From the NCBI RefSeq assembly GCF_963855985.1, contig NC_087097.1, forward strand, positions 7,721,001 through 7,785,000: 64,000 bases of DNA, in the 5' to 3' direction. The notes below the pieces were generated by a model, which ran no database searches, was not told the origin of the DNA, and worked only from the letters and a program-made list of their open reading frames with translations. The number at the start of each line of letters is the position of its first letter. Within the stretch, counting starts at the first letter, position 1. This DNA comes from Ostrinia nubilalis. Taxonomy: Eukaryota > Arthropoda > Insecta > Lepidoptera > Crambidae. This document shows positions 1 to 38,935 of this stretch, one piece after another. The position numbers and the translations under genes were made by a program.

Positions 1-1562
1 TAAGCGGTATATCCTGATAAAATAAAAACAGTAATAATGCTAAATAACAGGCAATACTAAAAAAATACATAAAATACCCAGAAAATGCCAATAAATAATA
101 AAAAATGAGACTTTTTGAAAAAAATCTGCTTAAAAATTCGTATTTTTTTGGTTATTTGATAAAGGACATCATCCACGTTTCATATATTTTTGGTCCAAAA
201 TCAAAAGTGCCGGCCAACAAAAAAAAGTGCTGTATTCTGACAGAATACGTCTGCCTTAGCATTTGTTACTATGGCACCAAAGCCGTAGCTCCACTGTGCG
301 TCGAGTATTTGAGATCTAAAAGTCATCGATTATTCATACATTTTTTGTTCAAAATCAAAAGTGTCGGCCAATAAAAAAAAAGTGCTGTGTTCAGACAGAA
401 TACGCCCGCCTTAGCATTTGTTACTATGGCACCAAAGCTGTAGCACCACTATGCGTCGAGTATTTGAGATCTAAAATTCATCGACGATTCATACATTTTT
501 TGTTCAAAATCAAAAGTGTCGGCCAATAACAAAAAGTGCTGTCTTCTGACAGAATACGTCCGCCTTAGCATTTGTTACTATGGCACCAAAGCTGTAGCAC
601 CACTGTGTGTCGAGTATTTGAGATCTAAAATTCATCGACGATTCATACATTTTTTGTTCAAAATCAAAAATGTCGGCCAATAAAAAAAAAAGTGCTGTAT
701 TCTGACAGAATACGTCCGCCTAAGTATTTGTTACTATGACACCAAAGCTGTAGCACCACTGTGCATCGTAGTATTTGAGATCAAAGTCAGTCGTTTCATA
801 TATTTTTAGAGCTCAAATACTACGATGCACAGTGGTGCTACAGCTTTGGTGCCATAGTAATAAATGCTAAGGCGGACGTATTCTATCAGAATACAGCACT
901 TTTGTTTTTTGGCCGGCACTTTTGATTTTGGACCAAAATGGATGATGTCCTTTCTTAAAAAAATGCCCCTATAACAGGTGGTTTTTATTACTTTGTATTA
1001 TTCTCTATCGTATTATCTTTGTAAAACCAAAAATCGCATGTCTCTATGCCTATCACAACATTTGCTATGATCGTTTGAACAAAGGCCTGCCACAACATTA
1101 TTCTCCGCTACAGGTAGAGAAAATTTTAATTTTAACTAAAATGCTTATTTTACTTCGAAATCTTTTGTTTTTATTTGAAATCTAACTTGTCTTTATCAAA
1201 ATTACAAATCTAGAGCCATTTTCAGTTTCGTTGTTAACGAAGCGTTGAATGGCGCGCCCGGAGAGGCTTAGTTCAAACAATCATTGCAAACGTTGTGATA
1301 GGGATAGAGACATGCTATTTTTGGTTTTACGAAGGTATTACGATAGAGAATAATACAAAGTAATAAAAACCACCGGTTATAGGGGCATTTTTTGGAGAAA
1401 TTTATCAAATAACCAAAAAATCACGAATTTTTAAGCAGATTTTTTTCAAAAAGTATCATTTTTTATTATTTGTTGGCCTTTTTTGTGTATTTTATGTATT
1501 TTTTTAGTATCGCCTGTTATTTAACATTATTACTGCTTTTAATTTATTAGGATATACCGCTT
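1..1562. mobile_element. Inverted-repeat (foldback-like) DNA element
   Basis: The first ~170 bases reappear inverted at about 1391-1562; both ends read TAAGCGGTATATCCT inward, with only scattered differences. A second inverted pair lies inside (about 971-1085 against 1263-1382). No protein coding is visible, so this is a non-autonomous element. The left end is at or just before the window edge, so a target duplication cannot be checked. A tandem array sits in the left arm and accounts for most of its extra length. Confidence 0.75.
197..945. repeat. 154-155-bp tandem array, four direct copies plus an inverted copy
   Basis: The block beginning AAAATCAAAAGTG starts at about 197, 351, 506 and 660, giving a period of 154-155 bp. 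A further partial copy runs in reverse at about 812-945. Each copy carries the short palindrome GTATTCTGACAGAATAC or a close variant, so single strands could form hairpins. Short ORFs crossing the array are incidental. Confidence 0.85.
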
Positions 1563-1727
1563 AGTTTAAAAGTTATTACGTTTTCTTTACAATAAGTAAT
1601 TGGAAGAAAAAAAAATCGATAAAAAATTTAAAAAAAATCTCAAAAAAATTTTGACCTCTTTTTTGTCGATAAGAATAGGTCTAATTTCATCTATTTTCAT
1701 ATGTACACTTTAACGTGACTCACACTG

Positions 1728-2747
1728 TATTTGCATTATATGACAATGCTTTATGCCAAATTTCAAGATTCTGAGTTTACGGGAAGTATCCTGTAGGTTT
1801 TGATTCCTTTGCGAGTGTCGAAAATTTGTTGAAAATATCGACATAATCGGCTGTATCTTTTGATTGGCTTGGCTTAGAAGTTTGATATTTTCACAGCTTA
1901 AAGGGACAATAGACTTGAGTATTTCATGTGAATTTCAGCTTGATACGTTCACGCGTTCTTGAGATAAAGGGTCTTGACAGACGGACGGACGGACAACAAA
2001 GTGATCCTATAAGGGTTCCGTTTTTTCCTTTTGAGGTACGGAACCCTAAAAGTACTGAAATCTAGACAAAGTCGTGCCAAGTCTATGGTTCCTTACTGCG
2101 ATTTCTTTATTATTATAGTTAATGTTGTGTGACTTGGCCGTTGAACAATCATTATTAAGATAATCATACATAAGTATTATTGAAATACCTACGCAGCTTT
2201 ATTAAACCTACAATTGACTGGTTATTGTTGAATCAAAGTTTTCCAAGTGGCAATTTTCCATCGTCAATGGGTAGCGGTTCTAGCGACAGATTTGTGCAAT
2301 GGTGTCATGGAGCACCTCGTTTTGTACCCTTCAACGGCCAAGTCACACAACATTAACTATAATAATAAAGAAATCGCAGTAAGGAACCATAGACTTGGCA
2401 CGACTTTGTCTAGATTTCAGTACTTTTAGGGTTCCGTACCTCAAAAGGAAAAAACGGAACCCTTATAGGATCACTTTGTTGTCCGTCCGTCCGTCTGTCA
2501 AGACCCTTTATCTCAAGAACGCGTGAACGTATCAAGCTGAAATTCACATGAAATACTCAAGTCTATTGTCCCTTTAAGCTGTGAAAATATCAAACTTCTA
2601 AGCCAAGCCAATCAAAAGATACAGCCGATTATGTCGATATTTTCAACAAATTTTCGACACTCGCAAAGGAATCAAAACCTACAGGATACTTCCCGTAAAC
2701 TCAGAATCTTGAAATTTGGCATAAAGCATTGTCATATAATGCAAATA
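1728..2747. repeat. Giant near-perfect palindrome, 418-bp arms
   Basis: Bases 1728-2145 and 2330-2747 are near-perfect reverse complements, separated by a 184-bp loop. The arms belong to a repeat family that occurs again, diverged, just downstream (about 2755-3100). The arms contain a CCGTCCGTCCGTCTGTC stretch and no convincing ORF. It is most simply an inverted duplication of an interspersed repeat. Confidence 0.9.
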
Positions 2748-3104
2748 TAGGAAAAATTGCGAAAATTACATTTTTTTAGTTATATAATATAATAAAAATA
2801 TTTTAATAAAATGAAACTTACTACCTTATTTCTCACTAACGAATAAAGGTATCAAATTGAAATTTATACCAAATACCTAGATCTATTGTCCCTTTAAGAA
2901 GTAAAAAAATCAAACTTCTAAGTTAACGCGATCAAAAGATACAGCAGTTTATACCGACACCTTAGACGAATTTCCGTCACACGCTAGGGAATCAAAACCT
3001 ACAAGGTACTTCCTGTGAACTCAGAATCTTGAAATTTGGCACGAAGCAACCTTATATAGTACAGATAAAGGAAAAATTGCGAAAATGATAAATTTGAAGT
3101 TATA

Positions 3105-4566
3105 CAGGGTGACTGGAACTGAACCCGCCATAGCTAATGCGCGTATAGAGGAGGTCATTTGCTAATTATTGAACCTTACTTTCTATGTCTAAAGTTTTAT
3201 AGTTTAGGAGATATGTCAATTTTTATACTTTTTTCAGATTTTTCCGAAATTAGACCTAAAAACTGCTTCAATTTTTTTTCTCGCGTGATTTCAACAGTTT
3301 TTTTTATTTGATATGAATATCGAATATGTCTTTATTGAAATAAAATAAATTTCTGATCCAGATAATGATTGAATAGCTAGTTACGAGCCGTTAAAGTCTA
3401 ACAAAAGTACAAACCACGATAAAAAATTCTACTTCGAATTCGATTGCAACAAAAATTAATGGTGATAATGGATTGCCAATAATCTTAAAAATATCTCTAG
3501 CTTCTCTTCTTTCCAATGATATATCACACGTTGTAATTAGATATTGAAATTTGTCAAAAAATCAAATTTTATAGAAGAAAATGGAGTGATAATACAAAAA
3601 TTATCCATACAAAGTTGATTTTGATTTTTTTTAAACTCTTTTCTTCGTTTCGTTCGTTTCAGCCAAATGACGTCCACTGCTGGACAAAGGAATCCCCCAA
3701 GGTTTTCCACAATGAACGGTCCTGCGCTGCCCGCATCCAGGCTCTTCCCGCGACCTTTACCAGATCGTCGGTCCACCTAGTAGGAGGCCTACCCACGCTA
3801 CGTCTTCCAGCCCGTGGTCGCCACTCGAGAACTTTCCTGCCCCAACGGCCATAGTCTCTACGAGCTATGTGCCCCGCCCACTGCCACTTGATTTTAGAAA
3901 TTCTGCGAGCTATGTCGGTTACTTTGGTTCTCCTGCGGATCTCCTCATAAAACTCTTTTCTTCATAATGTGATTATTATTTTTAAATTAATTTTTCAAAA
4001 AACACACAAAAATAGTTATGAAAAGGAGTATAGCAGAAAATATGAGATGTTTGAAGAAATGTATGGATAATTTTCGTATTATTACTCCATTTTCTTCCAT
4101 AAACTTTGAATTTTTAATAAATTTCAATATCTAATTACTACGTGTGATATATCATTGGAAAGAAGAGAAGCTAGAGATATTTTTAAGATCATTGGCAATC
4201 CATTATTACCATTAGTTTTTTTTTAAATCGAATTCGAACTTGAATTTTTTATCGTGGTTTGTACTTTTGTTGAACTTTGGCGGCTCGTAACTAATTATTG
4301 AATCATTATCTAGATCTGAAATTTATTTTATTTGACTAAAGGTTTATTCGATATTAGTATCAAATAAAAAAATCGGTTAAAATCATGCGAGAAAAAAAAA
4401 TTAAGCAGTCTTTAGGTAAAATTTCGGAAAAATCTGAAAAAAGTATAAAAATTGACATATCTTCTAAACTATAAAACTTTAGCCATAGAAAGTAAGGTTC
4501 AATAATTAGCAAATGACCTCCTCTATACGCGTATTAGCTATGGCGGGTTCAGTTCCAGTCACCCTG
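3105..4566. mobile_element. Long-TIR DNA transposon with TATA target duplication
   Basis: The ends read CAGGGTGACTGGAACTGAAC and its reverse complement. They extend into diverged inverted arms of roughly 500 bp each (to about 3616 and from about 4057). TATA flanks both ends (3101-3104 and 4567-4570). No transposase is present. The centre is occupied by a LINE fragment. The ends resemble those of the small MITE at 47020-47251. Confidence 0.8.
3647..3949 (-). pseudogene. 5'-truncated RTE-type LINE, C-terminal end of reverse transcriptase ORF
   Basis: Read on the minus strand, this 303-bp piece encodes, with frame breaks, the end of an RTE-type ORF (W-Q-W-A-G-H-like stretch, then G-R-R-S-V-G-R-P-P and R-W-T-D-D-L). 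It ends in a short AACG-rich tail. A 14-bp target duplication (AAACTCTTTTCTTC, 3633-3646 and 3950-3963) frames it, so it is a genuine, heavily 5'-truncated retrotransposition into the surrounding TIR element. Sister scraps lie at 18670-18782 and about 59930-60050. Confidence 0.8.
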
Positions 4567-20060: not shown

Positions 20061-21131
20061 ATGGAGCGGAACCTTAAGGAACAAATTTTAAAGTCAGCGT
20101 CAGCTGTGAAAAGAAAAGTAGAAATGTTAAAAGATTCAAAAATGAAAAATGATATGACACTGGAAACAATATTTAAACCTATTGTGAACCCTCTTAAACT
20201 ATTAAGTAGTAGACCTGATGGCAAACGCTACAACGAAGAAGAAACAGAACCAATCCAGTCAGTTAAAAGAACTAAACATATCGAAAGCCAGTCATCCAAT
20301 AATTCAGATGAAGACTTTGATTACTACAAAACGGATGTTGACAACGAGGAAAATTTAAATGATTATGAAGATATTTTAGAAAATGATGATTGTAAAACAC
20401 CTAACAAAACCCTCACCACATCACCCACTCATGAACACGATGTCCATGACAACTCATTTAAATCTATTCAGTCATCACCAAGTATTGCTAATGATTCTTT
20501 ATCATGGTCTGTGTCATCTGAAGTAATGCAAAATATTCCTTTTGGTGTTAGAAATGTTAATGGAAAATTGATGCTCGGTAATACACGTGTTTATGACGAT
20601 GGAAGCATTTTGAAAATTGGAAGCCGTAGCCTAAAAAAAACTCCAGGCTTGAAAGAATTATTATACCAAAAGGCACCAAATTTAAAAATAATTACAAACG
20701 AGGATTTACAAAATTATAAATTAGTACTTATAGATACCAATGCACACAAACGTAACTTCGATCCATTTAAACCAATAAACAGTAATAAAGGATTTAAATA
20801 TATGAACGTGATTAAACCTTTATTTAAGTTCTCTAGAAGTCACGCAAGTAGTGTAGAAAGTCTCCCGCGAGGTGAAGGCATCGATATATTGAAAGAAGTT
20901 AAGAAGGATACTGATTTAGTTTATTGGGATGATCCGAATGAATTAGTAGAAAGGCTAAAATTACTACTCGGGTCATGGGCAGCTGGTAACACTGGAGTTA
21001 ATAATGAAATTTATGCAATAATAGAAGAACTGCATGAAGCTGGTATTATAAAAGACATAAAATATATAAAGCTACCATCTGGAGGATTCAACAGTACCAT
21101 TAAACTACAGAAGCCGAGCAGACGGCAATGA
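20061..21131 (+). CDS. Conserved Polinton protein of unknown function (DUF8207-like C-terminal region)
   Basis: 356 residues from the ATG at 20061; an upstream in-frame GTG adds only five residues and is not needed. The N-terminal half is charged and low in complexity (runs of Asp, Glu, Ser and Asn), suggesting disorder. The C-terminal part has a recognisable conserved block, Y-W-D-D-P-N-E-L-V-E-R-L then AAGNTGVNNEIYAIIEELHE near residues 290-330, seen in many Polinton-associated proteins and, as I recall, filed as DUF8207. Function unknown. Its stop overlaps the next start as ATGA, so the two are probably translated as a pair. A structural or scaffolding role is only a guess from its place beside capsid genes. 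Confidence 0.7.
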   Translation: MERNLKEQILKSASAVKRKVEMLKDSKMKNDMTLETIFKPIVNPLKLLSSRPDGKRYNEEETEPIQSVKRTKHIESQSSNNSDEDFDYYKTDVDNEENLNDYEDILENDDCKTPNKTLTTSPTHEHDVHDNSFKSIQSSPSIANDSLSWSVSSEVMQNIPFGVRNVNGKLMLGNTRVYDDGSILKIGSRSLKKTPGLKELLYQKAPNLKIITNEDLQNYKLVLIDTNAHKRNFDPFKPINSNKGFKYMNVIKPLFKFSRSHASSVESLPRGEGIDILKEVKKDTDLVYWDDPNELVERLKLLLGSWAAGNTGVNNEIYAIIEELHEAGIIKDIKYIKLPSGGFNSTIKLQKPSRRQ

Positions 21132-22458: not shown

Positions 22459-23187
22459 ATGAAGGAAGGCAGTGGTGTAATCAATAGCTTGGTAGATCAT
22501 TTGCCGTTCGAGTTACATATACCTGGGTATCAATTTTGTGGTCCCGGTACGAAACTTCAAAAACGGATTCTAAAAGGCGATCGAGGGGTTAACAAATTAG
22601 ATAACGCTTGCATGCACCACGATATTTCTTACAATAATAAAGATCCTGGAGCTCGACGCAAAGCCGACTTGGAACTTTTGAATATGGCTCAAAGGAGATT
22701 GAAATCGAAAGATGCTGGAAAAGGAGAAAAAATTGCATCATGGATAGTAAAAAATGCTATGAAGGCAAAAATCAGAACAGGCAGTGGCATGAAATCATTT
22801 AAGAAAGGTGTGAAAAAAATACAGTCCCTATTGAAAAAAATGAAATCCAAGGATCAAAACTCTGTTATAAAATATGCTTATGCAGTTGCAAAGAAACTGT
22901 TTAGTAAAAAGAAAGGAATACGTTTGCCACGTATCATTCCTCTTCCAAAGTGTGGAGGACTTTTACCACTTATTCCCATATTTGCGGGATTGTCAGCTTT
23001 AGGTTCACTAGCTGGAGGAGCAGCAGGTATAGCAAAAGCTGTGAATGATTCTAAAGCTGCACAGAAGAGTCTTCAGGAATCTGAAAGACATAACAGAATG
23101 ATGGAAGCGGTGGCTCTTGGAAAAGGATTATATATTAAACCTCATAAAAAAGGAGCAGGGTTATATCTTAACCCATCAAAAAACTGA
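22459..23187 (+). CDS. Minor capsid protein with phospholipase A2-like domain
   Basis: 242 residues. The N-terminal part carries the PLA2 signature of parvovirus-type VP1 domains: Y24 and C-G-P-G-T-K-L (27-33) as calcium loop, D48-N-A-C, and the catalytic pair H54-D55 followed by Y58. The middle is very basic (Lys-rich, about 75-155). The C-terminal third has a glycine- and alanine-rich hydrophobic stretch (L-L-P-L-I-P-I-F-A-G, about 171-200), the kind of membrane-active segment seen in some virion core proteins. In viruses such domains help the particle breach a membrane, so an entry role is likely but inferred. The last codons form the heptamer A AAA AAC directly before the stop, in the right frame for a -1 shift into the protease. 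Confidence 0.85.
   Translation: MKEGSGVINSLVDHLPFELHIPGYQFCGPGTKLQKRILKGDRGVNKLDNACMHHDISYNNKDPGARRKADLELLNMAQRRLKSKDAGKGEKIASWIVKNAMKAKIRTGSGMKSFKKGVKKIQSLLKKMKSKDQNSVIKYAYAVAKKLFSKKKGIRLPRIIPLPKCGGLLPLIPIFAGLSALGSLAGGAAGIAKAVNDSKAAQKSLQESERHNRMMEAVALGKGLYIKPHKKGAGLYLNPSKN
23178..23184 (+). promoter_or_regulatory. Candidate -1 ribosomal frameshift site A AAA AAC
   Basis: The heptamer lies in the frame X XXY YYZ (last bases of codon 240, then AAA, AAC), immediately before the TGA of the PLA2 gene. A slip of one base backwards enters the protease frame, which is open from before this point and has no ATG ahead of its conserved N-terminal region. This is a canonical retroviral-type slippery sequence. 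No strong stem-loop was obvious by eye in the next 30 bases. Confidence 0.6.
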
Positions 23188-23573
23188 TTAAGCGGCTACC
23201 TAGACGTGCGCTCACTAACCTCGATATTTTGGAACATGCTAACGACATTCCTTACTTTCGCGGTGTTTACATGAGAGATACGTTACCTTTGAAACCTAGA
23301 AAAATAGAATGTGGAATATTAAATTTGGATAGCAACATAAATCCAGGTACGCATTGGGTGGCCTTTGTAAAGCAAAACAATTACGTAGAATATTATGATA
23401 GTTTTGGTAATTTAAAACCACCGTTAGAATTAATGAAATATATGTATGCCTTGCCTATAAACTACAATTATGTAAGACATCAAGCTTACGGCACTACTAA
23501 TTGTGGTCATTTGTGTCTAAAATTTTTAAGAAATTATTGGAAAAAGCATTTAAATAGCAAACGAAATAAATAA
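23184..23573 (+). CDS. PRO: Adenain-like cysteine protease
   Basis: Maturation protease of the Ulp1/adenain family. Catalytic residues visible: His in G-T-H-W-V-A-F, Asp in Y-Y-D-S-F-G, Gln in R-H-Q-A-Y-G and Cys in N-C-G-H-L-C. Conserved sequence begins upstream of any ATG (N-D-I-P-Y-F-R-G-V-Y lies before the first in-frame ATG at 23271; a TTG sits at 23229). The entry given here assumes production by -1 frameshift from the PLA2 gene, adding about 129 residues. Starting at 23271 would remove the family's N-terminal strand. Alternatives are non-AUG initiation or loss of a start in this copy. It is likely to cleave capsid precursors during assembly. Penton gene follows after 16 bp. Confidence 0.8.
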   Translation: MIKRLPRRALTNLDILEHANDIPYFRGVYMRDTLPLKPRKIECGILNLDSNINPGTHWVAFVKQNNYVEYYDSFGNLKPPLELMKYMYALPINYNYVRHQAYGTTNCGHLCLKFLRNYWKKHLNSKRNK

Positions 23574-23589: not shown

Positions 23590-24261
23590 ATGTCTTTCAC
23601 TGTATCTTTAACTGGAAGTGGAGCCTCTTTAACAACAAATTATTCACCAAGTTTGGAACTTCGAGGAGAATATGAATGCGGTCTTTTGTATTTCTCAACT
23701 TTTAACTCTATTCCTAATATCGATAAACGAAACAATAAGTTTCATTATGGTGAAAATGAAATCATCGAGATTCCTGAAGGATCTTATGAGCTTCAGGATA
23801 TTTGTGATTATTTAAAAGACAATATGAAGAACACTGTATTAAAACTAACTTGCAATAACAATACATTGAAGACAAACCTTTTTTGCTCCAAAGATGTTCA
23901 TTTTAATAAAAGTGAATCAATTGGTAAAATACTAGGTTTTGGAATGGAGACAATACATGCTAATATAAGTACTGATTCACAGTACCCTGTTAGCATTCTA
24001 TCAACAACCATTGTGAGAATCGAATGCGACGTAGTTAGTGGTTCCTTTGTAAACGGGAAAGCCAGTCACATTATTTATGAATTTGTGCCTAATGTTCCAC
24101 CTGGTTATCGAATAATTGAGATACCTAAAAACTTAATTTATTTTCCTGTTAATCAAAATTCTATAAGTGCTATCAATATACGGTTGTTGGACGCTGACAA
24201 TAAAGAGATAAATTTACGAGGTGAAGAAGTCCAGCTGTATTTACATTTCAGAAAAAAATGA
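23590..24261 (+). CDS. Penton-like minor capsid protein (single jelly-roll)
   Basis: 223 residues of beta-rich sequence with the opening S-F-T-V-S-L-T-G-S-G-A and the E-C-G-L-L-Y-F-S-T-F-N-S-I-P-N-I stretch typical of Polinton minor capsid proteins, which fold as a single jelly-roll and form the pentameric vertices. Near the C-terminus, V-P-P-G-Y-R-I-I-E-I-P and N-L-I-Y-F-P-V are also characteristic. ATG at 23590 gives full length. The stop overlaps the next start as ATGA. No frame damage. Confidence 0.85.
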   Translation: MSFTVSLTGSGASLTTNYSPSLELRGEYECGLLYFSTFNSIPNIDKRNNKFHYGENEIIEIPEGSYELQDICDYLKDNMKNTVLKLTCNNNTLKTNLFCSKDVHFNKSESIGKILGFGMETIHANISTDSQYPVSILSTTIVRIECDVVSGSFVNGKASHIIYEFVPNVPPGYRIIEIPKNLIYFPVNQNSISAINIRLLDADNKEINLRGEEVQLYLHFRKK

Positions 24262-24404
24262 TAAATTTCAATAAAAACCCCCCTCAGTCGTATACCCAAG
24301 CCATTCCTCGAAGATCATCTCGCAAAAGCACACCGTTTCAACTAAAAAAGAAGCTTACCAAGACCAATAAAGAATTTCTAAGGCTAATCGGGTTGATAAA
24401 ATGA
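24258..24404 (+). CDS. Small basic ORF (48 codons) between the two capsid genes
   Basis: The ORF starts within the stop of the penton gene (ATGA at 24258) and stops within the start of the major capsid gene (ATGA at 24401), filling the gap exactly. The product begins M-I-N-F-N-K-N-P-P-Q and is rich in Arg, Lys, Ser and Thr (R-R-S-S-R-K-S), with a hydrophobic end F-L-R-L-I-G-L-I-K. It could be a DNA-binding core peptide or a capsid cement peptide; neither is shown. The double overlap makes it very likely to be translated, by reinitiation after the penton gene. Confidence 0.65.
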   Translation: MINFNKNPPQSYTQAIPRRSSRKSTPFQLKKKLTKTNKEFLRLIGLIK

Positions 24405-25609
24405 ATATTCTAAATATATCTCAACAAACATCATACGACAACAGCATTGAAAGTTTCGAATATCATTCATACAAACCGTACGTGACAAGTTTCAACAAGA
24501 ATGATGAAATAAGAATTCCTATTAATCAACAAGATCTATACGTATTGCCTTCACTTAGTAGTTTGTATATCGAGGGGAAAGTGAATGTTTATAACACCAC
24601 AACTAAAGCAAAAATATCTGAGGTACATTTCATTAATAATCCGGCATTGTTCCTATTTCAAGATATTCGGTATGAATTGAATGGAGTAGAAATAGATAAA
24701 ATAAAAAATGCAGGTATAACTACAACAATAAAATCTTATCTATCGCTAAATGAAAATGAATCAAAATATGCACGAGTTTGGGGTTGGTCAACTATGGGAA
24801 CCAATAATACTGGAGGTGGGGCGTTTTCCTTATCCATTCCGCTAAACAAGATATTAGGATTCGCAGAAGACTATGAAAAAATAATCATGAACTGTAAACA
24901 CGAGTTAGTGTTACTTAGAAGCAATACGAATCTTAATTCTATCAAATTAAATACAGGAGAAGTTGTAGATGACATTATAATTAGTAAAATTATTTGGAGA
25001 GTGCCACATATCAAAGTGTCAGATCGAGAAAGAATAAATTTATTAAAGCATTTAGAGAAAGATCGTGCTATTCCTCTAGCATTTCGTAATTGGGATCTGT
25101 ATGAATACCCATTACTTCCTCAAACACGTAAGCATACTTGGTCTATCAAAACTGCATCCCAAACAGAGAAACCGCGATTTGTTGTAATAGCCTTACAAAC
25201 CAACCGCAAACACAACAGTCAATTGTCAATGGCAGAGTTTGATCATTGTCATGTACGTGATGTAAGAGTCTTTTTAAATTCGTCGTATTATCCCTATGAA
25301 GGGTTGAACATCAGTTTCTCAGATGACAAGTTCACTTTATTATACGAACAATATACAAGATTTCAGCAGTCGTATCACGGACGTCGTTCAGAGCCGTTGC
25401 TGAGTTTAAAAGAATTTAGAGACGTTGCCCCTTTATTCGTTATTGACTGTTCACGACAACACGAAACACTGAAAGGATCTATTGATGTGAGAGTCGAAAT
25501 TGAGACAGACCAAGAAATTCCAGATAAGACAGCTGCATACTGCCTGATTTTAAACGATTGTTTATACGAATATAAGCCTTTGAGTAACATTGTAAAGAAA
25601 CAATCATGA
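24401..25609 (+). CDS. MCP: Major capsid protein (double jelly-roll)
   Basis: 402 residues. The start (Q-Q-T-S-Y-D-N-S-I-E) and blocks such as Y-V-L-P-S-L-S-S-L-Y-I-E-G-K, L-F-Q-D-I-R-Y-E-L-N-G-V-E-I-D and W-R-V-P-H-I-K-V-S are typical of Polinton major capsid proteins, related to the trimeric hexon-type shells of large DNA viruses. Reading frame intact. The ATG overlaps the stop of the small ORF before it and the stop overlaps the next ATG (25606), both as ATGA. Together with the penton, protease and ATPase this gives the element a full virion-forming gene set. Confidence 0.9.
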   Translation: MNILNISQQTSYDNSIESFEYHSYKPYVTSFNKNDEIRIPINQQDLYVLPSLSSLYIEGKVNVYNTTTKAKISEVHFINNPALFLFQDIRYELNGVEIDKIKNAGITTTIKSYLSLNENESKYARVWGWSTMGTNNTGGGAFSLSIPLNKILGFAEDYEKIIMNCKHELVLLRSNTNLNSIKLNTGEVVDDIIISKIIWRVPHIKVSDRERINLLKHLEKDRAIPLAFRNWDLYEYPLLPQTRKHTWSIKTASQTEKPRFVVIALQTNRKHNSQLSMAEFDHCHVRDVRVFLNSSYYPYEGLNISFSDDKFTLLYEQYTRFQQSYHGRRSEPLLSLKEFRDVAPLFVIDCSRQHETLKGSIDVRVEIETDQEIPDKTAAYCLILNDCLYEYKPLSNIVKKQS

Positions 25610-26578: not shown

Positions 26579-29500
26579 TTAGTCCTCGATTGGCAGAGGG
26601 CATAACTTAACCAATGGACGCTGAATCAAGTTATTGGTTGCAGTTTTAACCATGGCGATTCTAACGATTCCGTCAGCTCCAGCAATGAGCTGCTGTACCC
26701 TACCGAGGGTCCAGTGTAACGGCGCTCGATTTTCATCCTTAATGATGACCATCGATCCCACAGCTAATGGTTTTGCATCTTTGGTCCATTTAGCGCGTTG
26801 CGTTAAAGAGTTAAGGTATTCGTGTTTCCATCTGGACCAGAAATTCTGATGGAAAGATTGCAACAACTGCCACCGATGAAGCCGATTAATGTTAATGGAA
26901 GAAAGATCTTCATCGGGGACCGCTGTTAACGGTTCTAACGTTAAGAAATGACCTGGTGTCAATGCTGACAGATCGCTGGGATCAGCACTTACGGGACACA
27001 ACGGTCTCGAATTTAAAATGGCTTCGATTTGTACGAAAAGTGTCGTCAGCTCTTCACAAGTTAAGACTTGATCGCCAACGACCCGATATAAATGACTTTT
27101 AGCCGCTTTTATTTGTATCTCCCAAACACCTCCGAAGTGGGGAGCCGAGGGAGGATTGAATTTGAATTCAATCTTCTCCGCTTGTGAAGCATCTTGCATT
27201 AAAGATGCAAGTTGGTTTCGATTAACATGCGATAGAACGTTTAAAAGTTTTTGTAAAGATGAAAATCTGTTCGTCAAATCGGTTAAAACGTTAAAATTTT
27301 TGCTTTCATTTACATTGCCCGTCACTAATGCCACTGACTTGCGAGATTCAGCCTGTACAAAATCCTCGTCCTGCTTTGATAAAGCAAGAGAGTGAGAAGG
27401 CCACGACTCTTTCTCCTGTGACAGCCAACACGGTCCCGCCCACCATAAGGAATTATTTAACATTTCATTAGGAAGAAGTCCGCGAGAACAGATGTCAGCT
27501 GGATTGTCTCCAGAAGAAACGTGGTGCCAACATTCAGAAGGTGCGATTTCTTGTATGTGACTTACACGATTTGCTACAAAAGTGGTCCATCGAGAAGAAT
27601 GGGAACGAAGCCAGGACAAAACGATCGTAGCATCTGACCACAAGAAAACTGAATTGATGGGAATGTCAGAAAGGTAAGTGTCACGAACATATTTGTATAG
27701 GTCAGCTAATAAAACTGCAGCGCAAAACTCCAATCGAGGCAATGGAATACGTTTCAAAGGAACTACTCGAGCTTTAGAGCAAACAAAAAAAACTTTTACG
27801 TTACCAGTCTCATCAACTGTGCGTAAGTAAATGACAGCGCCATAAGCAATCTCGGAACTGTCACAGAAGCCATGCAGTTCATACGATTTTGAATTCGAAC
27901 AGGTAAGTTTGCGTGGTATACGAAGACGAGTAAGATTCGGAAGTTGATCGGAATAAGAAGTCCATGAACGGACGACTTCGATAGGTGGCGTTTCGTCCCA
28001 ATCTACACCGAGAATCCAAAGTTTTTGGATCAAGCATTTAGCTTGGATTGTGATTGGTGAAAGAAAGCCGAGGGGATCAAAAATCCGAGCGAGTTCGCTT
28101 AGAATAGAACGTTTTGTGCACGGTTTAATTTCAGGTTTTACTGAGAAAAGAAAAGAATCGGATGAAGGGTCCCATTTAAGGCCGAGAACCTTCAACGGCG
28201 AGGGTTCCGCTTGGTCAAGAGATACTGAACCTTGTAGGTGTAGTTCAATAGGCAAATCAGACAAGAGCTGCGGTTCGTTGCTAACCCACTTCCGCAATTC
28301 AAAACGACCCAAGTTAAAAAGTTTGATAAGTTGCGTCTTTGCTTCTTGAGCAACGTCAAAGCTGTCAAATCCGCAAACCACATCGTCGACATACACGTGC
28401 GATTTAACGATTTGTTTCGCCAGAGGATATGCATCTCCTTCATCATCAGCAAGCTGTCGCAAAGTACGGCAAGCGAGATAAGGAGATGAAGCGACACCGT
28501 AAGTAACCGTATTCAAACGATACTCTCGAAGCACGTCGCTGGGCGACGGTCTCCAGAGAATACGTTGATACTCTCGGTGATCAGGCGAAACTAAAATCTG
28601 CCGATACATTTGGCGAACATCAGCCATGACGACGATTTGATGTTGTCGAAAGTTTAAAAGAATTTTAAAAATGTCGGGTTGTAACTTTGGACCGATTAAT
28701 TGCGTGTCATTAAAAGAACGAGCGTTTAAGTCTTTTGCAGACGCATCGAACACAACGCGAAGACGTGTCGTTGTGGAGTCAGGACGTAAGACACAGTGAT
28801 GTGGGATGTAATATTTACCCCTGCCCATTTGATCGAGTGGCACTAGTGACATGTGATTGGACTCGATATAGTCTGACATGAATTCGCGATATTGAGTGTA
28901 TAATTCATTGTCACGAGATAGTCTTTTTTCAATCGCATGAAACCGTCGTAACGCCACCTCGCGAGAACCTTGAAACATAGGATCAGAATCATCCTTGAAC
29001 GGATATTTAACGATATATCTACCGGAAGTGTCACGCTCGTGCTCGGTGACAAACTTATTTTCGCATAACTGTTCTTCCGGTGTCAATGAAGTTGCTTTAG
29101 GTACGTTATCTAGTTCCCAAAACCGTTTCACTAACGAGTTTAACTCGTGATCGATACTGAATGATAATGTATGTGTGAGTAATGCCGTGCTATGATTCAA
29201 ATACGTTTTACCAAGGAGAAGCCAACCGAAAATCGAATTAAAAGCCGTAGGTTGATTTTGACTTCCCTTGATTTGCTGTCCTAACAGCGATTCGGCAAAA
29301 ACATCAGCAGCAAACAATATATCAATCGGTCCGGGAATATCGAAACTAGGATCCGCTAAAGTAATCGATTTAATGTGCGACCATCGAGATGTATTTAATT
29401 GAGCTATAGGTTGATCGCTACATATTTTAGAAATTACATGCATGTTCAATGTGTAAACAATTTTATTGTTTGTGCCTACGCAACAAGTGACGTCACCGTT

Positions 29501-31021
29501 AATAGGTGCACAAGCATCTCCGAGTCCGCTAACACTAACTGAAGTTTGAGTAGGTACCAATTGCAAACGCTTAACAGCCGATTCCGTTATAAAGTTACTT
29601 TGGCTTCCCGTGTCAAAAAGTGCACGAAAAGATTGCAAGTCGCCGTGAGCGTCCTTCACCTGCACAATAGCGGTGGCTAGTAGAACAGTAGGCTTCGACT
29701 GCGATCTTGTAAATAAAGATGATGACACACTGGGCGCATCGGACTTATCGCGGTGAAGCAATGTGTGATGTTTGCGTTTACAAAACCGGCAAGTAAAGAA
29801 AGAATTACAATTTTTAATTTGATGAGATGACTTTAAGCAATTATAGCACCACTTCTTTTCTTCAGCTATTTTTATACGTTCATCGATAGATTTTTTACGA
29901 AACTCAGAACACGATGAGATTGAATGTGTATCATTGCAATATGAACACTTCTGAATGGGTTTTACGTTATCACTCGAAGTTGCAGGCCGCCTATCGTTCG
30001 CAGCCACTAAGGTGTGCGACACACTAGGGCGTTTTATAGAATTTTGAATAGGCTTCGATTTTGATGTATCCAAAAAATGTGAATCACGTATTAAAGCTTC
30101 ACATTTAGATTGCAAGAATAGTTTCAATTGGTCATACGTTGGAAACTCGATATCACAATACTTTTCTTCAAAGCTACGACGCATGGTTGTATCTAATTTC
30201 GATAATAAATGATAGACCAAAACAAAGTTCCAATTTTGAACCGGTAAGTTAATAGTTTTCAAAATACTTAAGTTTTCGTCTACTATGTCAAGCGATTTAC
30301 GAAATTCCCTTGCATCTTTAGATTTAAACTCAATATTAAGGATTTCGCGCCAACAAGTAAAAGCAAGATCGCGTTTATTTTTATACCTGCCGCATAAGGC
30401 TTGGTACGCATCATTATAATGCTCGTGAGTTAATGGGAATGCTTTAACTATGGACAATGCGTCGCCGCTAAGAGATGATACCAAATAGTGAAACCTTTCC
30501 GTGTCGGTGAGTGAGGATGAATTGTGAATTAAAGCGTTAAATGTATCAAAGTACTCCGGCCATTGTTTGATGTTACCAGAAAAAGTAGGAAGCGTTATTT
30601 TTGGCAACCGAATATTAAACGATGACGAGACGTTTTTCGATTGCTTTAATTCAGCATCCTCACTCCGAGTTAAAGTACGATAAATAGATTCGATTTTGTA
30701 ATAAGTGTCATCAAATTGCTCCTGCATACAAGAATCCAGGTCGTCCGTATCATCCAAAAGTTCTAATATGTTGAAGTGTGCGTCTTCAAATGTTTCTGCT
30801 ATTTGTTTAATGTCTTGGTGATAAGAAAAGAACAAATCGCTCTGAGAAGGGTCACTTGTCGCTAATTGACCAATTTCCAAAGCTTTGTTCAATCGTTTAA
30901 TAGAAATTGTTCGCTTTCGGCGCAAAGACGGTAAATCTTGCATAGAATATTCATGTTCGATTGATTTAGATTTAGATTTTCTTAACGTTTTTCGCGTCGA
31001 ACGTTTGCTTAAAAGTGACAT
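26579..31021 (-). CDS. BEL/Pao Gag-Pol polyprotein with deleted integrase core
   Basis: 1480 residues in one frame. In order: basic N-terminus; Gag region with L-P-T-F-S-G-N-I-K-Q-W-P-E-Y-F (about 145-230); three Cys/His knuckle-like motifs (C-S-Y-C, C-Y-N-C, C-R-F-C, about 350-420); aspartic protease F-D-T-G-S-Q-S-N-F (about 469); reverse transcriptase with Y-V-D-D (about 878); RNase H-like region from G-F-C-D-S-S-E. After N-V-L-S-H-V-N-R-N the sequence jumps to the late integrase text E-F-K-F-N-P-P-S-A-P-H-F-G-G, so the zinc-binding part and first catalytic Asp residues are absent while the frame is kept. Full BEL polyproteins are usually some 1700-1800 residues. The element can make Gag and reverse transcriptase but not a working integrase. 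Confidence 0.9.
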   Translation of the reverse strand: MSLLSKRSTRKTLRKSKSKSIEHEYSMQDLPSLRRKRTISIKRLNKALEIGQLATSDPSQSDLFFSYHQDIKQIAETFEDAHFNILELLDDTDDLDSCMQEQFDDTYYKIESIYRTLTRSEDAELKQSKNVSSSFNIRLPKITLPTFSGNIKQWPEYFDTFNALIHNSSSLTDTERFHYLVSSLSGDALSIVKAFPLTHEHYNDAYQALCGRYKNKRDLAFTCWREILNIEFKSKDAREFRKSLDIVDENLSILKTINLPVQNWNFVLVYHLLSKLDTTMRRSFEEKYCDIEFPTYDQLKLFLQSKCEALIRDSHFLDTSKSKPIQNSIKRPSVSHTLVAANDRRPATSSDNVKPIQKCSYCNDTHSISSCSEFRKKSIDERIKIAEEKKWCYNCLKSSHQIKNCNSFFTCRFCKRKHHTLLHRDKSDAPSVSSSLFTRSQSKPTVLLATAIVQVKDAHGDLQSFRALFDTGSQSNFITESAVKRLQLVPTQTSVSVSGLGDACAPINGDVTCCVGTNNKIVYTLNMHVISKICSDQPIAQLNTSRWSHIKSITLADPSFDIPGPIDILFAADVFAESLLGQQIKGSQNQPTAFNSIFGWLLLGKTYLNHSTALLTHTLSFSIDHELNSLVKRFWELDNVPKATSLTPEEQLCENKFVTEHERDTSGRYIVKYPFKDDSDPMFQGSREVALRRFHAIEKRLSRDNELYTQYREFMSDYIESNHMSLVPLDQMGRGKYYIPHHCVLRPDSTTTRLRVVFDASAKDLNARSFNDTQLIGPKLQPDIFKILLNFRQHQIVVMADVRQMYRQILVSPDHREYQRILWRPSPSDVLREYRLNTVTYGVASSPYLACRTLRQLADDEGDAYPLAKQIVKSHVYVDDVVCGFDSFDVAQEAKTQLIKLFNLGRFELRKWVSNEPQLLSDLPIELHLQGSVSLDQAEPSPLKVLGLKWDPSSDSFLFSVKPEIKPCTKRSILSELARIFDPLGFLSPITIQAKCLIQKLWILGVDWDETPPIEVVRSWTSYSDQLPNLTRLRIPRKLTCSNSKSYELHGFCDSSEIAYGAVIYLRTVDETGNVKVFFVCSKARVVPLKRIPLPRLEFCAAVLLADLYKYVRDTYLSDIPINSVFLWSDATIVLSWLRSHSSRWTTFVANRVSHIQEIAPSECWHHVSSGDNPADICSRGLLPNEMLNNSLWWAGPCWLSQEKESWPSHSLALSKQDEDFVQAESRKSVALVTGNVNESKNFNVLTDLTNRFSSLQKLLNVLSHVNRNQLASLMQDASQAEKIEFKFNPPSAPHFGGVWEIQIKAAKSHLYRVVGDQVLTCEELTTLFVQIEAILNSRPLCPVSADPSDLSALTPGHFLTLEPLTAVPDEDLSSININRLHRWQLLQSFHQNFWSRWKHEYLNSLTQRAKWTKDAKPLAVGSMVIIKDENRAPLHWTLGRVQQLIAGADGIVRIAMVKTATNNLIQRPLVKLCPLPIED

Positions 31022-31925
31022 TTTAGTTTATAAATACTAAATGTAAAAGTGTAAAATGAAATATGAAGTTAATAAAAAATATTAATTTTACTCAGTGTGT
31101 TACCACCCTAACGCTCGACTAGACAAAAAACGTGCGGCCGCTGTGGAATGCAGCTGCGAGTTGAATTGATGATGCACACACGCATACAGGTTACGCACAA
31201 TAATGATAACAAGTGGCCGATATTTAAATGATACGTTACGCTAAACGTTACAGGTACGATTACAAGATACAAATTGACGACTGTAAATATTACAAGTTAG
31301 CGTATTCAAAATACGAAATATAAAAATTGTTTACGTTAATTTGAACTGAACTACGATAAAATATTTTACTTTTAAAATGTTGTTCGTAGTTGCTTGGCGC
31401 TGGATCGGTGCGATAAGTACGAGAGATCACCGGTGGGCGCGGAACAATGCAACTACCCGAAAGTAAAAATAAAAATGTAGGAATGTAGTTTCGATATTTA
31501 AACGATATTACAATATGTTTTAGATATTGCACGATAAATAAAACGATTACAACAAATGTACTAGATGAATGTGGATAAATGTAGTGTCTATAAATAGAAT
31601 TAATGTAAGCCGATGAATAAATTAAGCACCGATTAATGATGAAAGATTGCTTAATTTGATCCTACAATAATTCAAGACAATACTTAACGATGTTTAACGA
31701 TAAGAATTCGGATAAATACGATATTACTGATGTGACCCGTAAGCACTGATACCGCACGATGTTGGATTAAGTAAATACTGATTAAATAGATTAACTCTGC
31801 AACCAATAACCGATGAATGAAATGAATAGATTTTACTAATTGCCGAGTATTTTAACCAGAAATACCACGATATTCGGAACGCGATACAGTACAATTTACA
31901 GGTGCTAGGTGGAAACTGTCCCGGG
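31022..31925 (-). other. BEL 5' untranslated leader
   Basis: About 900 bp between the primer site and the polyprotein start, with no ORF of note. Such leaders usually hold packaging signals; none could be identified by eye. Confidence 0.6.
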
Positions 31926-34075: not shown

Positions 34076-37000
34076 TTAAATGTTTAGAATGGGTGTATGC
34101 CCCCAAGCTCTTGTTGACACCTTGTCAGCCGAAACAAAACGTTTATCATCATTACTGGATAGCGCTACTTTGTTGAGACTGCGAGTAAAAATGTTGTGTT
34201 TGATTGACTTAAATAAAATATTTGTTTTCCGCACTATATTGCCGTGATACAAAGTTTTTTTATAGTCTGATATTTGTATATCGCGAACAACACTCTTCTT
34301 TACTCCCTTTGCTTTTTTAATTGTAGTATTAATGGTCTTTACACAATACAACTTTGAACGTAATCCAACAAACTCTGTTATAATGTTTCCTCCCATTTCG
34401 TCTTTGAAAAGTCCAGGAATCTTTTTATTTAGAAGCGGTAAGCCATATACATTTTCTTTGAAAAAATTGCTTGTGTCGAAATAATGTAAGAAGGTTTCTT
34501 TTAAATCTTTGTAAAAGTTTTCGGTTTCAATTTGGTAAACGAAACTATCCGTATCCGTGTAACACATTTGTAATTTGTTTTTATACGATGGTTCAAAAAC
34601 TGAATAATGAAAGTCATACATGTGGCTTTTAGATAACTCTAACACCGTAAACCCTATGTATATTGGCTTATCCAAAATCACCCGTTCAGGTTTTGTTTGT
34701 ATTGCGACTAAATTTTCAGTGAAAATTGAAACACTGTGAAAACTAGAGCTTGCAATTAATTTATTGGCAGTTATTTTCTTTTTTGTTACATTATTGTGGT
34801 CACTCCATTCGTTAACTAAATGTACATTAACTCTTTTTTCGCTGTTTTCTAAGGTTTTACCAAAAATGCTGTTATTGAGCAACTTAAAAAAGTCTTGTTC
34901 AAATGTAGATTGAGCCTGTTGTCTTAAACTCGTATTTAGATCGATATATTGTTTTAAGTAAGGACTTTGTTGAAACGTTATGACTCGATGTATTTTTTTT
35001 AATATCAGCCCATGTTTCAAACATGTTTTCAAGTGAACATAGTGGATGACGTAGAAGTACTTGTCGTAAAGATTAGGCACGAGCTTAAAAGTCTTACCCC
35101 CCGGTGGAATGCATTTCTCAGGACAAAATGGTAAATCATTGTGCCTGTCATGTAACTCTTTCGGATAGCTTAAGTCAACCTCAAGAATGAAACCATACTC
35201 TGCATCAGCAGGAACATTAACAATATCGAGACATTCAATTTCTGTCTGGTTTAAAAATCTAAAATTCGACAGCGGTAGAGATTGACACATACTGAATCCG
35301 TATAAGTTATTGCAATCTATGTAAACTACAAAGGTATCTGGTTTTAAGGGATCGTATTCGTTCATGTATTTGTTATTGGCGTTGGCATGCCTGTGCGAAC
35401 ACATGCATACTCCTCCTCTGATGCCTGATTGAATCATACGCACTATGGCAAGGTCATCTATGAGCTCCAACTCGACTCCAGTTTTGTAAAGCATTGCATC
35501 GAATGATAAACTAGGAGCGGTTACATAGAAAGCAGGATCTAATTGATAATGAAATTTGCAAGTTTTTCTAAACTTTTCAAAAATATCAGTTAACAAGAGA
35601 ACGTCTGTTTTCAAATACAATTTAGTGTATTGACCCAGATTTTTGATGTTAAATTGTGACCAAACTGATTGAGCATGTTCATAATCTTCATCAGTAATAT
35701 GCTCATTTGTAAGGGAGCTGTAAAACTCTTTTTTTTCTGGTAAACATCGCTCTTTAAACCGATCCCAGTTATCCATGTATTCGTAGGGATATATACCTTT
35801 GCGAGTAAGTAAATTAAATTGGGTAGGTATTGGAAAATGCGTGCGTAAATGATCAAACTCTTCTTTTTTAATAGTTTTTGCTAATTTATCTAAGCTAGTG
35901 CCAAGAAATTTAAATGAATCTACGAAGCGCAATTGCATAAATTCTTGATCAGAAATCGGAACAAATTTCGTAAATGACACATAATTTTCTTTAGTTTTAG
36001 GTATAATCTTAATATTTCCAGGCATTTCACCTAATTGTTTTATGAACAAATGACAGTCATAACCTGCCAAGTTGTGGAAAAATACAGGAATAAACTTAGG
36101 TATTTTGTATTGTAAATTACAATATCTGTGGGCTGCACCACGATATAATCCTGTTATGTGGCAGTGATCGCGCACTTTGTCTGAAAATAAAAAGTTATCA
36201 CATATATGACAGCGAGTGGCTTGCAAAAATTCGGATGCATCTTTTTCGGTAAAAATCATAGGCAAATTTTTAGATAAGATTGCATGAATTTCACGAACAT
36301 CACGGTAAAGAGATTCTATAAATTTTGAAACACAGTCAGAACCGAGATATGATACATACCGATTATAGCTACTGTTTACAGTACAGACTATATTGTACGC
36401 AAACGCTGAGGGTATATGGTGCTGCAGCGTTTTTGTATTTTGCGTATCAGATTTGTCTTTGTGCACTTCTAAAATTGTCTCAAAATCTGCATAAATGACG
36501 AATGGAACATTTTGTTTACGGTCATAATTATTAAATTTTATGACGGTCCCCTTTTCAGGTAATACAGTGACGATCCCGCTACATAAATGATTTTCTAGTT
36601 CATCAAAAGTAGTAAAAAACACTAAGCATGTATCACAGAAATAAATTTTACCATGATGAGCTGTTATTTGATTTCTGACAAGCCGCGACAAGTCCTTGAT
36701 AAGACAATAATGTGACGTCGCGTCATTTTCTAACATTAGCAAATGAATAGTTTTTTTGTTTTTGGTATTTTCAGATTTATATACGGGGCCAATAATGGTT
36801 TTAGAATTTTTTAGACCATAAATGATAAAACTTAACTTAGGATTGTTTTTCTCAAAAATCCTAATATCTGAGAATGTGACGGGATAAGATATCCCATTGA
36901 TATTTAGAACATCTTTAAAATTGGGATAAGACGAGACTCGTTCAGGATGATTTCGAGCAGGGTAAAGAGCTGCTGTTACGCTCCATAAAAAGCAACACTG

Positions 37001-37579
37001 GTCTTTATTTTGAATATTTATACATGCTTTCTTATTTTGAATAAATTTAGGTAATTTTAAATAAGATGACCCACCTAATGGTTGGTACTTATTGACATTT
37101 ATTTCTAAATGTGAATTACTTAAAAAAGCCCAACCACTATCGCTTTCCTCAAACTCTTCCATTTTCTTTTTCAATATACTCACTAGTTTAGAAAATAAAC
37201 TATCAAAATCATAGTTGTGGTAAAGTATAAAATTCTTTGTAACAAAAGATTTCATTTCCTGCATATTATTTTTGAATAACAGGAAAATGCTAAATAATTC
37301 AAAATTCACTTTGATGCAAGTATGTACTCTTAAAGCATCATCTAAAAGTGATTTTATTTTGTTATGAATAGAATTAAAGAAAATATCTATAGAAGTTTGG
37401 TCAAGTTCACTTGCAACTAATCGGTAAGAAATGATTCGAGAGCGAAATGCAGAACCTACGATTTCCACACCATCACTGTGTGGTTGGGTGGAGTTCTTTT
37501 GTTTGTGCAAGCGACTCCGCAAGTGTCCTACCCAAGAGGTTGAACCTATGGACACGTTACAAATAGTACAGAAAGGCAT
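34076..37579 (-). CDS. POLB: Protein-primed family B DNA polymerase
   Basis: 1167 residues. N-terminal C2H2-type zinc motif (C-T-I-C ... H-L-R-S-R-L-H). A region with N-I-Q-N-K-D-Q-C-C-F-L-W-S-V at about 190. 3'-5' exonuclease starting Y-A-D-F-E (about 365), F-F-H-N-L-A-G-Y-D (exo II) and Y-L-K-T-D-V-L-L-L (exo III). A Cys/His cluster C-H-I-C ... D-H-C-H just before exo II. Polymerase motifs D-C-N-N-L-Y-G (about 756), L-L-N-N-S-I-F-G-K-T (about 903) and Y-T-D-T-D-S (about 1006). All catalytic residues are present and the frame is intact, so self-replication is plausible. It faces the capsid block, as in other Polintons. The N-terminal protein primer is not separately recognisable. Confidence 0.95.
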   Translation of the reverse strand: MPFCTICNVSIGSTSWVGHLRSRLHKQKNSTQPHSDGVEIVGSAFRSRIISYRLVASELDQTSIDIFFNSIHNKIKSLLDDALRVHTCIKVNFELFSIFLLFKNNMQEMKSFVTKNFILYHNYDFDSLFSKLVSILKKKMEEFEESDSGWAFLSNSHLEINVNKYQPLGGSSYLKLPKFIQNKKACINIQNKDQCCFLWSVTAALYPARNHPERVSSYPNFKDVLNINGISYPVTFSDIRIFEKNNPKLSFIIYGLKNSKTIIGPVYKSENTKNKKTIHLLMLENDATSHYCLIKDLSRLVRNQITAHHGKIYFCDTCLVFFTTFDELENHLCSGIVTVLPEKGTVIKFNNYDRKQNVPFVIYADFETILEVHKDKSDTQNTKTLQHHIPSAFAYNIVCTVNSSYNRYVSYLGSDCVSKFIESLYRDVREIHAILSKNLPMIFTEKDASEFLQATRCHICDNFLFSDKVRDHCHITGLYRGAAHRYCNLQYKIPKFIPVFFHNLAGYDCHLFIKQLGEMPGNIKIIPKTKENYVSFTKFVPISDQEFMQLRFVDSFKFLGTSLDKLAKTIKKEEFDHLRTHFPIPTQFNLLTRKGIYPYEYMDNWDRFKERCLPEKKEFYSSLTNEHITDEDYEHAQSVWSQFNIKNLGQYTKLYLKTDVLLLTDIFEKFRKTCKFHYQLDPAFYVTAPSLSFDAMLYKTGVELELIDDLAIVRMIQSGIRGGVCMCSHRHANANNKYMNEYDPLKPDTFVVYIDCNNLYGFSMCQSLPLSNFRFLNQTEIECLDIVNVPADAEYGFILEVDLSYPKELHDRHNDLPFCPEKCIPPGGKTFKLVPNLYDKYFYVIHYVHLKTCLKHGLILKKIHRVITFQQSPYLKQYIDLNTSLRQQAQSTFEQDFFKLLNNSIFGKTLENSEKRVNVHLVNEWSDHNNVTKKKITANKLIASSSFHSVSIFTENLVAIQTKPERVILDKPIYIGFTVLELSKSHMYDFHYSVFEPSYKNKLQMCYTDTDSFVYQIETENFYKDLKETFLHYFDTSNFFKENVYGLPLLNKKIPGLFKDEMGGNIITEFVGLRSKLYCVKTINTTIKKAKGVKKSVVRDIQISDYKKTLYHGNIVRKTNILFKSIKHNIFTRSLNKVALSSNDDKRFVSADKVSTRAWGHTPILNI

Positions 37580-38935
37580 TTTAGAACCAAGAATTAGTTA
37601 ATAAACAATAAAGTCTCTATACCTACCTACTAGAAATAATGTTGAATAATTCGAATGTAAAAAATAATATTAAAACTGTGTAATAAGTAGGGTAATTCAA
37701 GTGCAATCTGTCATTTCAATCTATTCTATTTGTCATTTAGCTTGTTTAATCTGTGCTGAATAAAGTGCACAATATTTAAGCAGGATATGGTTGCACGCGG
37801 ATTTTTAGAGAGTTAAATCTTTTGGCCAATAGAAAACGTCATAATAGTTATTATAAGAACTGGGATTGGTCAATGACTTTTGAAATTAAAATCCGATGGC
37901 CTGAAAAAATCGGTTTTCCAACAAACGTCAGTTACGCGCAAGGAGGTTTAGCTATTTATCCATCGAAGTTAATAAGGGAGAAGACATAAGACTAATTTTA
38001 TTATTTGCCTGCCGCGACCCGGTTTTTACGAACAATGACGATGACGAACGATGAACCAGTAACGAGGAGCACACTTAGCAATGCTTCCAGGTTGCGCCTC
38101 GGTATCAATTAAGTAACATTTTCCGTTAAGTTTACTTTATGGCCAACTAAAGGACTTTTGCCGTCTCCATGGACAAACTCGAAGTATGATAACTACAGTC
38201 ATTGTCAAAATTTTGCACTGCCATTGCCGCTGGATACCATATATCGCTACTATATTCATAGATAATAGACTTTCAGTTAATCGTCAAAATTGACATTGTT
38301 TTTTAAATAACAACAAATGGTATGAATTTTTAAATGTGATATTTTTATAAAGGTAAGTCCCCAAAACAACATTTGATAGCCTATTTTCTTTCGTTGGCAT
38401 CTAAGTTCCTGTTTTCTACATATATGTTACTACTACCTATTGGATAAGTAACTAAGAACTTTGTCGTTTATTCCATGTGAACAAAATCCCTAAAAGCCCA
38501 TTTGTAATAATATTCTTACTAAACACTGCTGAAAAAGGACTAAACTTCTGAGCTATGAACGTATAATCCAGTAGCATTAAGTAGGTAGGTACGTATAGCG
38601 ACGTTGGAACTTGATAATTATAGAAGTTAGCTGTTTTATTTTTTTTTTCACAGCAGAAATCTTTATCTTTGATCTTAATATCTGATCGTACGTATTGTCT
38701 TTTAAAATATTACATTTGCCTAAATAAAAATAACCGACCTGCTGCTTATGTAAATTATAATTATTTATAACCCTACTTACAATGCATAACAATCATAATT
38801 AGGTATTATAACCCTACTTAACAATGCATAACAATCATAAGATAGTTTGGCGTATAAGTAGGTAGGTAGGTACTATCTAGGCCGAAGGTGGAAGCGATCG
38901 ACCCGGAAATATTCTCAACCATCTCAACTATCATA
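37580..38935. other. Non-coding Polinton interval
   Basis: No recognised gene. A ~37-bp block containing CAATGCATAACAATCATAA is tandemly duplicated at about 38768-38839. Confidence 0.5.

Follow-up and report, generated by a model that had tools for sequence, protein, structure and literature searches.

An apparently conserved slippery heptamer at the PLA2–protease junction of an Ostrinia nubilalis Polinton points to probable −1 ribosomal frameshifting

The window analysed here, a stretch of 64,000 nucleotides from Ostrinia nubilalis, carries on its + strand a Polinton/Maverick gene cluster, recognised from the list of open reading frames (ORFs) and from Pfam searches. The cluster runs from a packaging ATPase through two ORFs, an integrase, a PLA2-domain protein, a protease, a 223-aa ORF and a 48-aa ORF to a double jelly-roll capsid protein and a further ORF. 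Pfam identified the integrase (rve, 2.6e−12), the packaging ATPase (Pox_A32, 2.3e−5) and the capsid protein (DJR-like, 7.2e−108), and the Polinton/Maverick set is complete for integrase, packaging ATPase, double jelly-roll capsid protein and protease. The 223-aa ORF stands where the minor capsid gene would be expected and had no Pfam match. All ten reading frames of the cluster, that of the protease among them, are free of internal stops. On the − strand, a 1173-aa ORF (34076–37597) lies where the protein-primed DNA polymerase B of a Polinton would be expected, and its sole match, Endonuclease_7, fell just under the Pfam cut-off; a similarity to endonuclease VII is listed for the POLB of a Spodoptera Maverick in the consulted part of PMC5803895. 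Between the capsid cluster and this polymerase-like ORF lies a retrotransposon-like ORF of 1482 aa (26579–31027, −), by our reading a putative BEL/Pao-like element. A search for terminal inverted repeats found no fitting pair of at least 40 bases, and exact matches between the flanks tried did not exceed 14 bases. Three scans of viral contigs confirmed no relative of this DNA, and PHROGs gave no match for the three proteins searched.

At five junctions of the cluster the stop of a gene overlaps the start of the collinear gene behind it, as ATGA four times and as ATGAGTAA once (Table 1), which suggests a polycistronic mRNA whose genes would be translated by coupling. The 48-aa ORF, which encodes a basic protein and is flanked by the genes for the minor and the major capsid protein, belongs to this series. 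Among the overlapping junctions, the one between the PLA2 gene and the protease alone lacks an ATG and alone carries a slippery heptamer, an exception also compatible with a dedicated device at the point where two products should be fused.

Table 1 Features of the PLA2–protease junction and of the neighbouring gene overlaps (positions in the window)
Feature	Position	Strand	Basis
Stop-start overlaps, ATGA (four)	21128–21131, 24258–24261, 24401–24404, 25606–25609	+	sequence
Stop-start overlap, ATGAGTAA	21471–21478	+	sequence
PLA2-domain gene, 242 aa, first ATG to TGA	22459–23187	+	Pfam PF08398, E 1.2e−11; ORF
GxGL-type motif, PLA2 C-terminus	23149–23165	+	sequence comparison
Protease frame, stop to stop, 133 aa, adenovirus-protease-like	23172–23573	+	ORF, model, PDB matches
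Slippery heptamer A AAA AAC, PLA2 frame	23178–23184	+	sequence
CTG in protease frame: first codon after the slip; near-cognate start if reinitiation is assumed	23184–23186	+	sequence
PLA2 stop TGA, directly 3′ of heptamer	23185–23187	+	sequence
Protease domain part 5′ of first ATG: helix 16–22, most of strand 29–34	23205–23270	+	model
First protease-frame ATG, within the conserved FRGVYMRD stretch	23271–23273	+	sequence, alignment

Read in the 0 frame, the PLA2 gene ends CCA TCA AAA AAC TGA. The A that ends TCA and the two final codons together give A AAA AAC, a match to the X XXY YYZ pattern in the register that tandem slippage requires, followed directly by the stop, exactly as the original prediction had placed it. 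A scan of nine ORFs of the window (2,230 codons) returned 23 in-phase heptamers of the general type, among which A AAA AAC stood in phase once. Judged by the window alone the heptamer is only mildly unusual, and it is the comparison with relatives that takes it beyond chance. A structure model of the PLA2 protein was set aside for its mean pLDDT of 49.4. A possible likeness between the hydrophobic segment of this protein and adenovirus core proteins found no support in the Pfam search.

The protease frame lies at −1 relative to the PLA2 frame, which agrees with the prediction, and holds no ATG before 23271. The statement that this frame is open before the heptamer was right for two codons only, because its upstream stop, TAA, occupies 23169–23171. 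Modelling of the protease gave a mean pLDDT of 93.6, and adenain was among the best PDB matches, indicating the adenain fold of a peptidase C5 cysteine protease. By the model and by adenovirus protease structures the domain begins near residue 12, about 66 bases (about 22 residues) 5′ of the first ATG, and in the alignment the sequence shared with relatives likewise begins 5′ of 23271, so that the predicted conserved protease sequence upstream of the first ATG is borne out. In an alignment of 71 proteases H61 and C111 were invariant and D76 was kept in at least 90% of sequences; we take H61, C111 and the acidic D76 to be the catalytic residues by homology. A slip at the heptamer would give a fusion of 242 + 129 = 371 residues, the size expected for the capsid–protease fusion.

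Homologs of the PLA2 protein were compared at the protein level, and all counts given for them refer to the best 120 of 2070. Lys-Asn was the exact end of the protein, with the stop directly after it, in 118 of these 120, and the other two ended in KNC and KNM. Among the 118, entropy was 1.9–3.0 bits at positions −4 to −7, 1.5 bits at the residue before KN and 0 for both K and N. The residue before KN was in every case (118/118) S, P, T, Q, L, K, A or E, all of which have a codon ending in A. One position earlier, 93 of the 118 residues have an NNA codon and 25 do not; at that background rate the chance of finding none without such a codon among 118 would be 6e−13 under independence, a figure that serves as a guide only since the sequences are related. 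As S, P, T and A can be encoded in other ways too, an A before AAA is probable rather than read directly in the relatives. The site thus appears conserved, and most relatives probably carry the exact heptamer, including AAC rather than AAT and the wobble A.

The same comparison bears on two other readings of the junction. The heptamer begins with six A in a row, on which an RNA polymerase could slip and produce a mixed pool of mRNAs that join the frames. Polymerase slippage would favour longer runs, whereas in the 118 homologs the run is not lengthened and the last residue is Asn every time, which leaves this explanation with very little probability. Decay or a sequencing error is disfavoured too, because relatives keep the PLA2 end and the ten frames of the cluster are without internal stops.

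A GxGL-type motif stands nine residues before KN in 107 of the best 120 (of 2070) PLA2 homologs and is repeated in two distant homologs (P0324 and P0327). It is possibly a candidate protease cleavage site for self-release, or else a cofactor tail; the former reading draws on cleavage preferences that we assume for adenain.

More distant members were reached through a scan of genome contigs, in which a single distant relative was found (L001, 43% identity, with a broken PLA2 gene). This locus, at 1082–3797 of WRFS01000058.1, is filed under a metagenome-assembled genome of Oscillospiraceae and holds Polinton-like PLA2 and integrase-like fragments; it is probably eukaryotic contamination of the bin. 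Inspection by eye of its ORFs of at least 60 aa recognised no protease. A search with L001 as query gave 96 proteins, from which 12 with a comparable long tail were chosen by eye (P0318, P0320, P0322, P0324–P0330, P0333 and P0336). KN lay at most 4 residues from the end in 10 of the 12, P0325 and P0333 being without it. The KN end is not universal in the wider family, because many other proteins from this search are short or GMGLKY-like at the end and lack KN.

The PLA2 ends also constrain where the protease could start. Any NTG read in the −1 frame means that the 0 frame encodes Cys or Trp at that place, unless the overlap is with the stop TGA, so that where Cys and Trp are absent there is no NTG. 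Just 15 of the best 120 (of 2070) PLA2 homologs have Cys or Trp within their last 25 residues; in the remaining 105, the −1 frame cannot contain ATG, GTG, TTG or CTG across the 25 codons that precede the stop, the codon running into the stop (here the CTG at 23184) being exempt. The reading that an ATG was lost here and kept by sister copies is therefore disfavoured, because most of these homologs cannot have an ATG there either.

Protease homologs were counted among the best 120 of 452, with M standing for ATG, GTG or TTG and with starts as chosen by the gene caller, so that a further start is possible. In this sample, 21 proteases started at an internal MRD, MRN or MKD, 19 started 5′ of KKL (the heptamer as read in the protease frame), 58 started 20–25 residues before the FRGV-type motif and 22 elsewhere, the last two counts being summed by hand. 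The starts of the 58 lie around or just before LPxRAL, and many of these are distant members with a seemingly ordinary start. Sister copies with a start ahead of the conserved protease sequence, which would speak against the original prediction, thus occur in part.

These starts could mean that the protease has a start or an exon of its own, by independent initiation or splicing, and that the A-rich junction is a by-product of overlapping reading of KKL. The 19 proteases beginning 5′ of KKL (best 120 of 452) read through it, and the window may represent a copy that lost its upstream start. We consider this explanation improbable, as 105 of the best 120 (of 2070) PLA2 homologs cannot have an NTG in their last 25 codons and the KN-stop is kept nonetheless. 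As to splicing, intact copies of vertebrate Mavericks are reported to be without introns in the part of PMC8097293 that we consulted.

To relate the two sets of ends, we picked by eye 20 PLA2/protease pairs as probably coming from the same contig, judged by equal length of their longest contigs and not taken from records. For P0143/P0002, P0157/P0017, P0202/P0014 and P0220/P0032, the PLA2 end and the predicted protease start can be encoded by a single DNA sequence with the two frames at −1, where K-K-L can be read only from A AAA AA(C/T). Such fits are not always unique: when 134 PLA2 ends were compared, P0002 fitted 1, P0017 fitted 3, and P0014 and P0032 fitted 5 each; for 9 of the 19 proteases that start 5′ of KKL, no matching end was found among the 134. 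In nine further pairs the predicted protease starts at an internal MRD and in two at MEHA inside the domain. P0187/P0010 and P0330/P0033, in which the predicted protease starts just 3′ of the heptamer, gave no fit because the script covers only starts that overlap PLA2. Three pairs were rejected as coincidences: P0131/P0007, for which the script found no fit, and P0146/P0093 and P0163/P0116, in which the PLA2 protein is a near homolog and the protease a distant one. Checking the junction in relatives through their proteins thus upheld the KN-stop and, in four pairs, the −1 relation, but some relatives have a start near the site.

Starts just after the heptamer, as in P0001, P0010 and P0011, bring in reinitiation, in which ribosomes terminate at the TGA and restart nearby in the protease frame. 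The start would here be near-cognate, such as the CTG at 23184 or the ATT at 23187, and in some relatives an ATG after the heptamer. The ATGA and ATGAGTAA overlaps at the five other junctions of the cluster are in keeping with this, as is the stop position, which is fixed in 118 of the best 120 (of 2070) PLA2 homologs. Reinitiation, however, leaves the invariant Lys-Asn and the preceding A-ending codon unexplained, and no ATG is at hand in the window or in those relatives predicted to start at MRD; we regard it as unlikely, though less so than the other alternatives.

RNA structure gave no help to the frameshift reading. Six folds of the sequence 3′ of the heptamer showed no excess of nested structure (z −0.05 to 2.14, one sequence), a crude score for simple pseudoknots was equalled or exceeded by 51 of 100 shuffles (one sequence), and the single Rfam match was far under its gathering score; the downstream structure that might have been predicted was not found. 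Other points also weigh against frameshifting: frameshifting alone would not require the stop directly 3′ of the heptamer to be so fixed, proteases of relatives start near the site (19/120 and 58/120, best 120 of 452), and the stop-start overlaps at five other junctions suggest reinitiation as the habit of the element. On balance, the proposal that the protease is expressed by −1 frameshifting was strengthened by the KN-stop (118/120) and by the exclusion of NTG (105/120) among the best PLA2 homologs and weakened by some sister starts and by the lack of RNA structure signal in the one sequence folded. Conserved −1 frameshifting that yields a PLA2–protease fusion is, on the evidence of these sequences, the probable explanation.

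For this frameshift we infer the following course. The majority of ribosomes would terminate PLA2 translation at the TGA, while a minority would slip by −1 with the AAA and AAC tRNAs on A AAA AAC and continue with CTG ATT AAG in the protease frame to make the fusion of about 371 residues. The fusion could carry a small, fixed dose of protease into the particle alongside the PLA2 protein, where the protease would mature virion proteins and might cut itself free. We lean, with less assurance, towards a broader reading, in which the maturation protease of a whole lineage of animal Polintons enters the particle fused to the PLA2 virion protein, through a −1 frameshift that is ancient and conserved; this would be a retrovirus-like Gag-Pro strategy in a dsDNA element, set in a polycistronic late mRNA whose other junctions are stop-start overlaps.

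Programmed frameshifting, familiar from RNA viruses and retroelements, is, to our knowledge, hardly established in eukaryotic dsDNA elements. If the proposal is true, it explains how the protease is expressed in these Polintons and perhaps how it reaches particles, and gene models that truncate the protease need correction, as for P0009, the 97-residue record from Parnassius mnemosyne. The junction would then also lend itself to a simple reporter assay that asks whether the genes still serve their viral purpose.

Our search of the open-access literature on frameshifting in Polintons, Mavericks and adintoviruses found no report of a PLA2–protease frameshift among the papers listed, and to that extent the prediction that the arrangement is undescribed held; its novelty is narrower, however, given one sentence in a 2024 preprint on adintoviruses (PMC11071296). 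That sentence, the nearest prior statement found, names potential Hexon–Adenain (“Hexain”) fusions like the possible Penton frameshifts of the same preprint. The elements are related and virus-like, the protease is of the same type and a −1 capsid–protease fusion is possible in both, but there the partner is Hexon, the statement comes from a prediction program and “PLA2” occurs 0 times in the text. Spodoptera frugiperda Mavericks 1 and 2 likewise have a PLA2-domain CAP and an adenain-like PRO, which are given as separate ORFs, with frameshifting unmentioned, in the consulted part of PMC5803895; P0152, an S. frugiperda homolog that bears the name CAP and is probably this protein, ends in PKN. 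AAAAAAC itself is tabulated as the slippery sequence of several retroviruses and astroviruses, IAP, BLV and HTLV among them, according to the part of PMC3835772 consulted. The Polinton junction differs from gag-pro of beta- and deltaretroviruses in belonging to a DNA element, in its adenain-type cysteine protease, in the stop directly after the heptamer and in that no pseudoknot was found, and it resembles gag-pro in the heptamer, shared with several of these viruses, and in a protease reached by a −1 shift at the end of a structural gene.
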